Assembly (NCBI RefSeq): GCF_900149695.1
Contig: NZ_LT703008.1
Span: forward strand, 446-52,633
Direction: 5' to 3'
From: Anderseniella sp. Alg231-50
GTDB lineage: Bacteria > Pseudomonadota > Alphaproteobacteria > Rhizobiales > Aestuariivirgaceae
Length of the DNA stretch: 52,188 bases
A model generated the notes under the pieces. The model was given only the letters and a program-made list of their open reading frames with translations, was not told where the DNA came from and did no database searches. Positions 11,113 through 29,655 of the stretch are shown here, piece by piece (position 1 is the first letter of the stretch; the number at the start of each line of letters is the position of its first letter). A program made the position numbers and the translations under genes.

Positions 11113-11199
11113 TGGTGCGGTCGAGAAGACTCGAACTTCCACGGGTGTTACCCCACAGCGACCTCAACGCTGCGCGTCTACCAATTCCGCCACGACCGC
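11113..11199 (-). tRNA. tRNA-Leu (anticodon GAG)
   Basis: An 87-nt cloverleaf with CCA encoded. The acceptor stem GCGGTCG pairs with CGACCGC. The anticodon stem CAGCG/CGCTG encloses the loop TTGAGGT, giving anticodon GAG. A long variable arm (TGGGGTAACACCCG) marks a class II tRNA, and the T-loop is TTCGAGT. It reads CTC and CTT leucine codons. Confidence 0.96.
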
Positions 11200-14154: not shown

Positions 14155-15306
14155 TCACAATATCATGTCCTGCAGTGATTTCGGGTGGTCCGTTATCTGC
14201 TCATAACCGTCTTCGGTAACAATGAAACTGTCACCGACCTGGGCGCGGAATGACCCGGCAACGCTGACCGACCCGTCCACCGCCAGCACCATGCCCGGCT
14301 GCAGAACAGTCTTGTCACCGAAGACCAGTTCCGGCTTTTCCAGAAAGCTGTAACCGGTGGCGCGGCCGCAACGGAACGGATAGTCGTGCCCCGCCGCCTG
14401 AATGACGTCCGCATAGGCTGCATGAACGGTTTCAGCTGTCACGCCTGGCCGCAAGACGGCCAGAGCCGCGGCCTGGCTGGCAACCGCAGTTTCATAGACG
14501 TCCCGCTGTATCTTGTCCTTGACCTCCCCAATCCAGAAGGTGCGATCAAAACCAAGCTTGAAGCGGTGGAAATTGGTCATGCCGCAAAAACACAGGAACA
14601 CCGGGTCGCCATGCCTCATGATGCGGGTCGACGCGCGATGGTGCGGTTTGGTGATGTCGCGGCCCGACGCCATGATCTGCAGAAAATGCGTGTTGGGCGA
14701 CATGCACTTGTCGTCATAGTGAGCGGCCAGCAGCTCGGCGGCTTTTCGGGTACCTGCCGCAGAGGTTGCGAGTGCAACCTCGAATTCCGGCACATTTGCG
14801 CCGATGGCGGCCCGCCCTGCATTCATCATCGCCATCGCCACCTGCCCGGCATGGCGCGCCAATAGCAGTTCGTCCGGTGACTTGATCATGCGCATGCCGG
14901 CAATCACCGGCATCACATCGGTCAACCGCCGCGGTTCAACGATCCTGTCGAGGTAGTTGCGCACGACCGCAGGCATCAGGTCCGGTTCGATGCCTACGCG
15001 GCCCTCGCCTGCCATCGCAGCAGGCAGCTGTTCGCGCCATTCACTGCCGAGGCCGTCATTCCATTCGGCAATCCGGTCAACACGGGCCGCTGCCTCGGCC
15101 ATGTCTTTTTCCATGGCGGGCGTTATCAGCAGGCTGTCACCGTCGCGCGGCACTATCAGGATCGTCGGACGGCCAAAATCCATGTGCAGGTAATCGTAAT
15201 AGCCGGTCAGGTAATAGACGCTGTCATCGTCGGTGATCACGGCACAGTCGATGTCCGCTTCGCTCAGTCGGGTTCGCAATTGCTGCATACGTTGATCGAA
15301 CATCAT
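14155..15306 (-). CDS. M24/creatinase-like family protein lacking most metal ligands
   Basis: 383 residues with a creatinase N-domain (1-125) and a pita-bread C-domain (about 140-383). The family's five metal ligands (Asp, Asp, His, Glu, Glu) are mostly gone. The first Asp region reads PVFLCFCG, the DxTRT region reads GFDRTF, the GHGxG region reads CGRATGYSF, and the two Glu sites read AVDGS and FRAQVGDS. This resembles metal-free creatinase-type hydrolases more than aminopeptidase P. A His-His pair (222-223) sits where creatinase has its catalytic His. The substrate is unknown. Its start overlaps the stop of the M20 hydrolase (ATGA), so the two are made together and probably act in one pathway. 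Confidence 0.82.
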   Translation of the reverse strand: MMFDQRMQQLRTRLSEADIDCAVITDDDSVYYLTGYYDYLHMDFGRPTILIVPRDGDSLLITPAMEKDMAEAAARVDRIAEWNDGLGSEWREQLPAAMAGEGRVGIEPDLMPAVVRNYLDRIVEPRRLTDVMPVIAGMRMIKSPDELLLARHAGQVAMAMMNAGRAAIGANVPEFEVALATSAAGTRKAAELLAAHYDDKCMSPNTHFLQIMASGRDITKPHHRASTRIMRHGDPVFLCFCGMTNFHRFKLGFDRTFWIGEVKDKIQRDVYETAVASQAAALAVLRPGVTAETVHAAYADVIQAAGHDYPFRCGRATGYSFLEKPELVFGDKTVLQPGMVLAVDGSVSVAGSFRAQVGDSFIVTEDGYEQITDHPKSLQDMIL

Positions 15307-27723: not shown

Positions 27724-28176
27724 ATGAATACACTCGTTGAACGCTTGGACCACTATGGCATGGGTGCATGGATAGCACTGATGGTGGTCAGTTTCGTGGT
27801 CTTTTGGCCACTCGGATTGGCAATACTTGGATACATGATTTGGAGCGGACGCATGAGATGCAAAAACAAGGGCAAGGTCGCGGCCTTTAACGCAACCGGA
27901 TTTGGCATGGGCAAAGGCGGCCCCGGCCGTTGGTACCGCGGCGGTTTTCCAAGTTCCGGAAATCGCGCCTTTGACGACTATCGCGAAGAGACCCTCAACC
28001 GTCTTCAGGAAGAACACGAGGAGTTTCAGGCCTTCCTTGAGAAACTTCGCCATGCACGTGACAAATCCGAATTCGACCAGTTCATGGCTGACCGGACCAA
28101 ACGCGCTGAAGCAACCGATGTTGAAGACGCACCAGAAACAGATGCCAAGGACGAAGGCGACAAGCCTGCCGCCTGA
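27724..28176 (+). CDS. DUF2852 small membrane protein
   Basis: 150 residues. The start ATG follows GAGGCGAGAC. One membrane segment, probably a short hairpin, is at about 16-40 (WIALMVVSFVVFWPLGLAILGYMIWSGRM). A Gly-rich basic linker follows, then FDDYREETLNRLQEEHEEFQAFLEKLRHARDKSEFDQFM, which is a charged helix and the DUF2852 signature, and an acidic tail. The family is almost confined to alphaproteobacteria and has no known function. An intrinsic terminator follows the stop codon. Confidence 0.88.
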   Translation: MNTLVERLDHYGMGAWIALMVVSFVVFWPLGLAILGYMIWSGRMRCKNKGKVAAFNATGFGMGKGGPGRWYRGGFPSSGNRAFDDYREETLNRLQEEHEEFQAFLEKLRHARDKSEFDQFMADRTKRAEATDVEDAPETDAKDEGDKPAA

Positions 28177-28201
28177 CGCATCGGTTACCGCAATGAACGA
28201 C

Positions 28202-28230
28202 AACCCCGGCCTCATGCGCCGGGGTTTGCT
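28202..28230 (+). terminator. Intrinsic terminator after the DUF2852 gene
   Basis: A 9-bp perfect stem, AACCCCGGC with GCCGGGGTT, closes a 7-nt loop and is followed by TTTGCTTT. It ends the upstream transcript just before the creatinase promoter. Confidence 0.85.
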
Positions 28231-28239
28231 TTATGGAGT

Positions 28240-28267
28240 TTGACACAAAACCCAATTGTGCTACTAG
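28240..28267 (+). promoter_or_regulatory. Sigma-70 type promoter of the creatinase leader
   Basis: The consensus -35 box TTGACA (28240-28245) and TACTAG (28262-28267) are separated by 16 bp. The predicted start near 28274 coincides with the 5' edge of the structured RNA that follows. Confidence 0.75.
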
Positions 28268-28273
28268 CACTGC

Positions 28274-28380
28274 CAGGTCGGGGCAGCGATGGCGTCGCTG
28301 CACAGATCCCCGACCAGGGTTGAACGATCAGACCCTCATGGCATCCTGAACGCCCGGATGAGTTTTCTCCGGGCATTTCT
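28274..28380 (+). ncRNA. Structured 5' leader of the creatinase mRNA, candidate riboswitch/attenuator
   Basis: Four nested or consecutive helices can be drawn. (1) GGTCGGGG (28276-28283) pairs with CCCCGACC (28308-28315). (2) Inside it, CAGCGA pairs with TCGCTG (28284-28300), loop TGGCG. (3) AGGGT pairs with ACCCT (28316-28336), apex GA-ACGA-TC. (4) GCCCGGA pairs with TCCGGGC (28352-28374), followed by ATTTCT, like a weak terminator. It begins where the promoter predicts transcription starts, and the creatinase start lies about 50 nt after the last hairpin. A competing pairing between CCAGG..GGGG (28273-28283) and CCCC..CCTGG near 28390-28404 would break helix 1. I do not recognise a known riboswitch class. 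The ACGA apex recalls guanidine-II loops but the rest does not fit. Confidence 0.6.
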
Positions 28381-28428
28381 ATGGGTAATCCCCAACCGGC
28401 CTGGAGAACGGCTTGTTGGAGATTTGTC

Positions 28429-29655
28429 ATGTTGCAAAGAATTACCCGTCCAGATGCTTTTCGTTTTCACAATGGCGAGAAGGCAAAACTTCCTTTCACT
28501 GCAAAAGAGTATGAGCGCCGCTTGAACCGGTTGCGCAGGATCATGACGCGCTTGGACCTGCCTGCGGTGCTGCTGACCTCAATGCATAACGTCGCCTATT
28601 ATTCCGGCTTCCTGTATTGCAGTTTTGGCCGTCCTTACGCGTGTGTCGTGACCCATGACGCGTGCACGACGGTTTCCGCCAACATCGATGCCGGCCAGCC
28701 GTGGCGCCGGTCGTTCGGCGACAATGTCACCTACACAGACTGGCAACGCGGCAACTACTGGCGCGCCATACAAGAACTGATAGGTGAACCTGGCCGGCTC
28801 GGCATAGAAGCCGATCACCTGACCCTCGCCATGCGCGACCAGGCAACCGCAACCCTGGGCGCACCCGACATGTGCGACATCGGCAAGGCCACCATGGCGC
28901 AGCGCATGGTGAAGTCGCCTGAGGAAATCAGGCTGATCAAGTCTGGTGCGAAGGTCGCCGATATTGGCGGTGAAGCCATTCGGGATGCAGTTCAGATCGG
29001 CGCGCGCGAGATTGACATCGCCATGGCCGGGCGTAATGCCATGGAGACAGCGATTGCCGAGCGTCATCCGGACAGTGAGATCCGCGACAGCTGGGTATGG
29101 TTCCAGTCCGGCATCAACACCGATGGCGCACACAACCCGGTCACCACGCGCAAGCTGGAACGCGGCGATATTCTTTCGCTCAACACGTTCCCGATGATCT
29201 CCGGATACTACACCGCACTGGAACGCACGCTATTCATCGGCGAACCGTCAAAAGCAGAGCGAAAACTGTGGGAAATCAATGTCGGAGCGCATGAACTGGG
29301 CATATCGCTGATCAGGCCGGGTGCAAGCTGTTCTGCCATCACATCAGAGATCAACAGCTACTTCGAAGACCATGATGTCCTGCAGTACCGGACGTTCGGA
29401 TATGGCCATTCGTTCGGTGTCCTGTCGCACTACTACGGTCGCGAGGCAGGCCTTGAACTGCGTGAAGATATCGACACGGTGCTTGAGCCGGGCATGGTGG
29501 TTTCAATGGAACCGATGCTCACCGTGCCGGAAGGAAAACCCGGCGCCGGCGGTTACCGTGAACATGACATTTTGGTGGTTGGCAAAAGCAGTGCGGAAAA
29601 CATCACCGGTTTTCCGTACGGTCCGGAGCATAACATCATTACCGCACAGAACTGA
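28429..29655 (+). CDS. Creatinase (creatine amidinohydrolase)
   Basis: 408 residues. It hydrolyses creatine to sarcosine and urea. The match to Pseudomonas creatinase is close along the whole length as I remember that protein: FLYCSFGRPYA, NIDAGQPWRRS, WFQSGINTDGAHNPVTTRK (catalytic His about 235), GYYTALERTLF (Glu265), YRTFGYGHSFG, GREAGLELREDIDTVLEPG and VVSMEPM (Glu361). The M24 fold is used without metals. The start at 28429 has TTGGAG seven bases before it; an ATG at 28381 in the same frame lies directly after the terminator-like hairpin and lacks a ribosome site. The unit is monocistronic, bounded by terminators, with a structured leader. No creatininase, sarcosine oxidase or urease gene is nearby. 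Confidence 0.93.
   Translation: MLQRITRPDAFRFHNGEKAKLPFTAKEYERRLNRLRRIMTRLDLPAVLLTSMHNVAYYSGFLYCSFGRPYACVVTHDACTTVSANIDAGQPWRRSFGDNVTYTDWQRGNYWRAIQELIGEPGRLGIEADHLTLAMRDQATATLGAPDMCDIGKATMAQRMVKSPEEIRLIKSGAKVADIGGEAIRDAVQIGAREIDIAMAGRNAMETAIAERHPDSEIRDSWVWFQSGINTDGAHNPVTTRKLERGDILSLNTFPMISGYYTALERTLFIGEPSKAERKLWEINVGAHELGISLIRPGASCSAITSEINSYFEDHDVLQYRTFGYGHSFGVLSHYYGREAGLELREDIDTVLEPGMVVSMEPMLTVPEGKPGAGGYREHDILVVGKSSAENITGFPYGPEHNIITAQN

Follow-up and report, generated by a model that had tools for sequence, protein, structure and literature searches.

Guanidine-II (mini-ykkC) riboswitches are built from two short hairpins with conserved ACGR loops, which make a GC-rich loop-loop contact near the ribosome site. 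Their ligand has been proposed to unblock that site (PMC10907184, in the sections available). Another group treated in the available sections of the same source (PMC10907184) is the strand-exchange riboswitches, in which the switching strand is common to the aptamer and the expression platform.

CahR and AmtR, two regulators of creatine use, are transcription factors, unlike the RNA leader described here. CahR controls creatine use in Pseudomonas putida. In Corynebacterium glutamicum, creatine as a nitrogen source is controlled by AmtR (PMC8864220, in the sections available). Neither a creatine riboswitch nor a creatinase RNA motif was found in the literature searched, whose coverage was thin for subscription papers and preprints. 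By term search, creatine is unmentioned in the available parts of PMC7266159, PMC10907184 and PMC2864571. The available part of PMC12335538 brings it up only as a possible guanidine source and as an analogue expected to be rejected by a guanidine riboswitch.

Guanidine-II is the nearest known RNA in style to the leader described here: both have two short hairpins with GC loop complementarity near the ribosome site. Unlike guanidine-II, the leader carries the loops UGGCG and UGNACGCC rather than two ACGR loops, and strong matches to it are found only before creatinase. It is also proposed to share with strand-exchange riboswitches a switching strand between aptamer and platform, and differs from the known members in having a new core, a single associated gene and a putative ligand.

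The leader lies in the window, a stretch of 52,188 nucleotides from Anderseniella sp. Alg231-50, directly before a creatinase (creatine amidinohydrolase) gene on the plus strand (28429..29655, ATG at 28429). The 408-aa product has creatine amidinohydrolase 1chm as its best match (phmmer E 1.1e-162). Eight active-site positions were checked, which we take to be F62, R64, H232, Y258, E262, R335 and E358 of the Pseudomonas enzyme plus another histidine; none of them varies among the 122 creatinases compared. The leader almost certainly represents a new class of structured cis-regulatory RNA dedicated to creatinase. The explanation favoured here, with a probability of about 0.62, is a two-hairpin aptamer that most likely senses creatine and acts as an ON switch for the gene.

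In the window, a putative sigma-70-type promoter (28240..28267, plus strand, as are all features of the leader) consists of TTGACA at 28240-28245 and TACTAG at 28262-28267, separated by 16 nt. A first-pass annotation had named these hexamers. They are absent from a strict sigma-70 consensus scan because its rule demands T as the sixth base of the second hexamer, which here is G. The 157-nt leader folds at -68.6 kcal/mol, compared with -54.2 (sd 3.7) for shuffled versions (z -3.84), and none of 200 shuffles was as good.

Hairpin 1 (28283..28301) is part of the conserved core and has 7 bp and the loop UGGCG at 28290-28294. Around it runs an outer stem, GGTCGGGG/CCCCGACC (28276..28315), in which 28276-28283 is complementary to 28308-28315. 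The annotation had described this 8-bp stem enclosing a second hairpin, and it is present; it is a local elaboration, since only 14 of 111 leaders, the window included, beat shuffles at p<=0.05. The mean score for pairing of this type over the 111 leaders is 6.94 vs 6.28 (p 1e-5), but with so few single leaders above chance the outer stem was dropped as a general part of the aptamer. An ACGA-apex hairpin, likewise predicted, follows at about 28316-28336, and its apex reads ACAA and GCAA in two congeners.

Hairpin 2 (28342..28360), the other part of the conserved core, has the stem CAUCC/GGAUG and the loop UGAACGCCC. It overlaps the 7-bp GC-rich stem that the annotation had reported before a T-rich stretch. 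That stem is present as well, as GCCCGGA 28352-28358 with UCCGGGC 28368-28374, followed by AUUUCU (ATTTCT in the DNA) at 28375-28380; it does not appear in the list of a terminator scan. The stem (28352..28374) excludes hairpin 2 and is proposed as an anti-aptamer stem. The conserved core had been overlooked: the GGCG of the enclosed hairpin's loop (28291..28294) is complementary to the CGCC (28351..28354) of the hairpin at 28342-28360. The ribosome-binding site TGGAGA (28417..28422) and the start codon lie in the order predicted. An alternative pairing of the first stem's 5' strand with 28390-28404 had also been put forward; informal inspection outside the genus gave no sign that it is shared. 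What does recur is competition of downstream sequence with hairpin 2; in the window the competitor is the stem 28352-28374.

A separate terminator-like hairpin is seen at 28202-28226 (AACCCCGG...CCGGGGTT, then TGCTTTATGG), after the upstream open reading frame 27724-28176 and just 5' of the creatinase promoter.

Protein similarity was used to fetch creatinase loci; at least 595 creatinase stretches existed, and the best 80 were taken. A search of six genomes from the genus was added, and in two of them (78% and 86% complete) there was no close creatinase. The window, the 80 loci and three congener loci make up a set of 84 leaders, which represents the nearest relatives and not a random sample, as only the best 80 stretches were kept. 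The core is present in 83 of these 84 leaders, and in 111 of 112 genes once 28 found through the RNA are added. Hairpin 2 has the consensus [A/G]UCCUGNACGCC[C/G]GGA[U/C] and the loop of hairpin 1 is UGGCG. Between the two core patterns lie 19 to 134 nt (median 42). Folding of the linkers is slightly more favourable than in shuffles (mean z -0.88 over 107), with no shared structure definable among these 107.

Seventy-two of the 84 leaders were aligned (alignment A2). Left out were L070, which has no core, six leaders with long linkers (L038, L057, L068, L072, L076 and L081), and L052, L077, L030, L053 and L067. Changes on both sides with pairing kept are seen in 10 of 16 scored pairs in the 72 leaders (4.4 in shuffles; 1-7 in slid controls), and occupy 115 cells of the alignment, compared with 33 (sd 6) in shuffles and at most 56 in slid controls. 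Pairing is possible in 90.7% of cells, compared with 82.0% after column shuffling and 30-43% after a shift of the 3' partners by 1-3 columns. All seven pairs of hairpin 1 show both-sided changes, and its outermost scored pair is unpaired in 29 of the 72 leaders. In hairpin 2 such changes occur in three of four scored pairs (28343-28346 with 28356-28359), and the optional top U-[G/A] pair fails in 48 of 72. Unaided, RNAalifold recovers both hairpins.

A column-pair test covered both hairpins and their flanks, using 48 columns and 106 distinct rows from 110 of the 111 leaders. After background correction, the seven strongest column pairs are all predicted stem pairs (71.4 down to 16.3), with the strongest in hairpin 1; the next two, at 15.6 and 13.1, are not predicted. 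Loop 1 GGCG is invariant in all 72 aligned leaders and all 106 distinct cores, as is loop 2 CGCC, and the invariant letters extend to UGGCG and UGNACGCC over the 106 rows. Since these letters never vary, covariation is unable to support the GGCG/CGCC pairing, which is plausible from the complementarity of the two loops. A conserved and covarying structure of the kind looked for in a riboswitch is found in the creatinase 5' leader. Covariation among homologous creatinase leaders had been named beforehand as a test by the first-pass annotation, and its general idea, that the leader is structured, regulates in cis and may be a riboswitch sensing creatine or a guanidino compound, is strongly supported by these comparative data.

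A covariance model, R1, was run on whole genomes in three partly overlapping samples of 385, 398 and 369 genomes. The window's own genome has one strong match, at 59.5 bits, and the next scores 20.6. Among 385 genomes of the window's class, 12 reach at least 39.8 bits, followed by a gap down to 31.8; apart from the window, each of the 11 strong matches stands before a creatinase with 63.6-72.9% identity to the window's. Matches at E<=0.01 occur in 70 of the 385 genomes, and those at 31.8 bits or less were treated as chance. Eighteen weak-match loci (L142-L159) all lie inside stop-free frames of 227-890 codons, and none has a creatinase match at E<=1e-5.

Among 398 Pseudomonadota genomes, 32 have a creatinase at E<=1e-60 and 24 an R1 match at E<=5e-4. 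The 24 are exactly those whose creatinase is 64-100% identical to the window's; no match occurs in the eight genomes whose creatinase is 56-60% identical or in the 366 others. Direct inspection of six of the eight distant creatinase loci found no core, only single hairpin-like patterns with 1-2 mismatches in L200, L202 and L205 and no pair; the other two (G227 and G603, creatinases below 60% identity) lack the RNA as judged by the R1 model only. In 369 genomes of G796's class there are four R1 matches, all before creatinase.

A tree of 122 creatinase genes, made by a quick method with SH-aLRT support only, has a branch with 100% support that includes 116 rows, of which 115 have the core and one (L070) does not; six distant creatinases fall outside. 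The core label changes twice on this tree. The proportion of 115 in 122 is not an unbiased rate, because 32 of the genes (L131-L141, L160-L176 and L206-L209) were found through the RNA itself, and fairer counts are 83/84 and 24/32. Members of the core-bearing branch come from named Roseobacteraceae, Rhizobiaceae, Granulosicoccaceae and Thiotrichaceae as well as from a gammaproteobacterial worm symbiont, and this mixture suggests that the RNA moves together with the creatinase gene. In the tree, genomes of the window's class fall among named Roseobacteraceae, which points to an alphaproteobacterial source for the window. By analogy with CahR and AmtR, creatinases outside the branch may be controlled by transcription factors of that sort.

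The exception within the branch, L070 (195-3001), is the creatinase of an Albidovulum MAG with no core upstream. A divergent gene pair is found there, which by sequence look alone resembles an ABC transporter (ATPase and binding protein).

The leader is probably transcribed together with creatinase, to judge from where promoter-like sequences fall. A search within 90 nt places the end of the best promoter-like pair 5-14 nt ahead of the hairpin 1 region in 91 of 111 leaders, and the mean score is 6.76 compared with 5.64 (sd 0.73) in shuffles. Promoters placed just 5' of hairpin 1 would make the core the very 5' end of the mRNA.

Switching was modelled by folding each leader either with hairpin 2 forbidden or with the aptamer imposed by energy bonuses, with shuffled platforms as controls and loop docking ignored. 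When hairpin 2 is forbidden, its 3' strand pairs downstream with a mean probability of 0.60 in the 111 leaders, compared with 0.46 in shuffled ones (p 1e-7), and at 0.82 in the window, compared with 0.48. The downstream complement C[CT]GGG of this strand occurs in 55 of 110 leaders where 16.8 are expected, and the longest competing helix has 5.85 rather than 4.99 pairs (110 of 111 leaders). The modelled openness of the ribosome site is 0.283 with the aptamer imposed and 0.213 with hairpin 2 forbidden; this gain of 0.070 compares with 0.024 in shuffles (p 0.001). The effect is modest, with 51 of 111 leaders gaining more than 0.05 and 12 losing more than 0.05. Downstream competition with hairpin 2 is thus above chance in the models, fitting an ON switch, and a ligand-ON direction fits the induction of a degradative enzyme by its own substrate.

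In the window, the ribosome-site hexamer is equally open with hairpin 2 (0.17) and without it (0.18), and the stretch up to the start codon is 0.30 open with the hairpin and 0.14 without. The competitor in the window and two congeners is the GCCCGGA/UCCGGGC stem, followed by a U-rich stretch, which suggests attenuation. As the hexamer is not freed in the model, attenuation would be the likelier output in the window.

Taken as a mechanism, the mRNA for creatinase would begin with a dedicated cis-regulatory RNA in which two hairpins with a variable-length linker between them dock by their GGCG and CGCC loops to form a small aptamer. Its most likely ligand would be creatine, the substrate of creatinase. 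When no ligand is bound, the 3' strand of hairpin 2 (GCC[C/G]GGA) would pair with downstream sequence. The outcome would be a terminator-like stem in the window and two congeners, and in many of the other leaders a fold in which the ribosome-binding site is hidden. A bound ligand would let the aptamer hold hairpin 2, so that creatinase is made; the creatine-degrading enzyme would then probably be produced only when creatine is present. That the leader is a small-molecule riboswitch is quite likely from the comparative evidence, and the odds lean towards creatine as the ligand. Stated in full, the proposal is of a natural creatine riboswitch class whose aptamer measures about 50-165 nt, linker included, and is held together by a loop-loop helix of 4 bp between its two hairpins. 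It would turn creatinase ON in Alpha- and Gammaproteobacteria and would have been passed down with a single creatinase branch from that branch's beginning; we rate this somewhat better than even. Against an ON reading stand the 12 of 111 leaders that go the opposite way, the static hexamer of the window, and the openness of shuffled leaders, which at 0.328 exceeds both modelled states (0.283 and 0.213). The restriction to a single gene would also fit autogenous control by a protein, and one creatinase within the branch, L070, is without the core.

The genes beside creatinase vary. Apart from creatinase, the most widespread gene cluster reaches 18 of the 80 loci and is unannotated. Sarcosine oxidase carries out the next step of creatine breakdown. 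Of the 80 loci, 7 and 4 carry clusters represented by its subunits next to creatinase. The window's genome also has two soxB genes that score above the family cut-off, both located elsewhere. A regulator-like cluster of AraC type (GbdR-like, below cut-off) is present in 4 of 80. The window also encodes, at 14176-15300 on the minus strand (G000:C6:14621-15745), a protein of creatinase/prolidase fold that is 25% identical to the creatinase (E 7e-22).

Several other explanations can be weighed against the same data. A riboswitch for another molecule, such as sarcosine, urea, creatinine, guanidinoacetate or another guanidino compound, is unlikely, although the comparative evidence applies to it in the same way and the sequence does not fix the ligand; every strong match examined precedes a creatinase whose checked active-site positions are unchanged, and a product sensor ought to shut the gene down, whereas the platforms tend towards ON. 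A little less likely again is a leader that binds a protein, either creatinase itself in an autogenous circuit or an RNA-binding regulator, with no small molecule involved. The RNA tracks one creatinase branch, with two label changes, and its strong matches stand only before creatinase, as such control would predict; among the annotated clusters, however, no regulator family was seen to recur beside the gene, the one regulator-like cluster, of AraC type, being in 4 of 80 loci. Invariant complementary loops beside a competing platform are, moreover, the look of small-ligand aptamers.

Compared with these, a peptide-leader attenuator, the gene of a trans-acting small RNA or a DNA operator is very improbable. 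An AUG does occur within the conserved hairpin 1, yet its frame runs for 4-76 codons with no common end, and in 37 of 111 leaders there is no stop before the creatinase start, by which peptide-leader attenuation was rejected. Inverted repeats can be operators, but the stem letters here vary freely while pairing is kept, unlike an operator. The terminator-like stem could end a short RNA; the window's genome has one strong copy, however, and all strong matches lie just before creatinase. A repeated or trans-acting element was rejected on the single strong match in the genome, a DNA search elsewhere having returned only 10 matches of 15-28 nt (E 0.1-5). Least probable of all is a guanidine-II (mini-ykkC) riboswitch or a close variant of it. 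The resemblance lies in two small hairpins with GC loop-loop complementarity before the ribosome site, where the guanidine-II ligand is described as freeing that site (PMC10907184, in the sections available). In the leader the two loops are unlike each other, and the local ACGA apex, through which the first-pass annotation had drawn the link to guanidine-II, is not conserved. The leader's own strand, moreover, matches no Rfam 15 family up to E 10 (28180-28500), and guanidine-II membership was rejected on these grounds. Five sub-threshold Rfam matches in 28180-28500 are either on the opposite strand or located 5' of the promoter, and three up to E 10 in nine further loci lie outside the cores; none of them is guanidine-II. 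At the gathering score there is no match in 20 of the 80 named loci, and the only one in the window is a tRNA (11116-11199, minus strand). The annotation's statement that the leader is unlike any known riboswitch class agrees with these searches, and the Rfam check that it had proposed for the region returned no confident match to an ordinary element.

If the ligand is creatine, the creatinase leader would be a new riboswitch class, as far as searched, and a small natural sensor of a medically interesting compound. It would then account for how creatine use could be switched on in the many bacteria where no recurrent regulator gene was seen beside creatinase. Even with another ligand, it is a covarying cis-regulatory RNA with no Rfam match, tied to one enzyme and directly testable.

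The shortest platform is found in L078 (277-309), where 13 nt separate hairpin 2 from the start codon and the ribosome-binding site AGGAGA begins one base after the hairpin. The sequence CAGGA is complementary to TCCTG, the 5' strand of hairpin 2 itself, so that in this leader hairpin 2 could itself be the switch. The modelled hexamer is less open with the hairpin (0.10) than without it (0.22), which speaks against that role.
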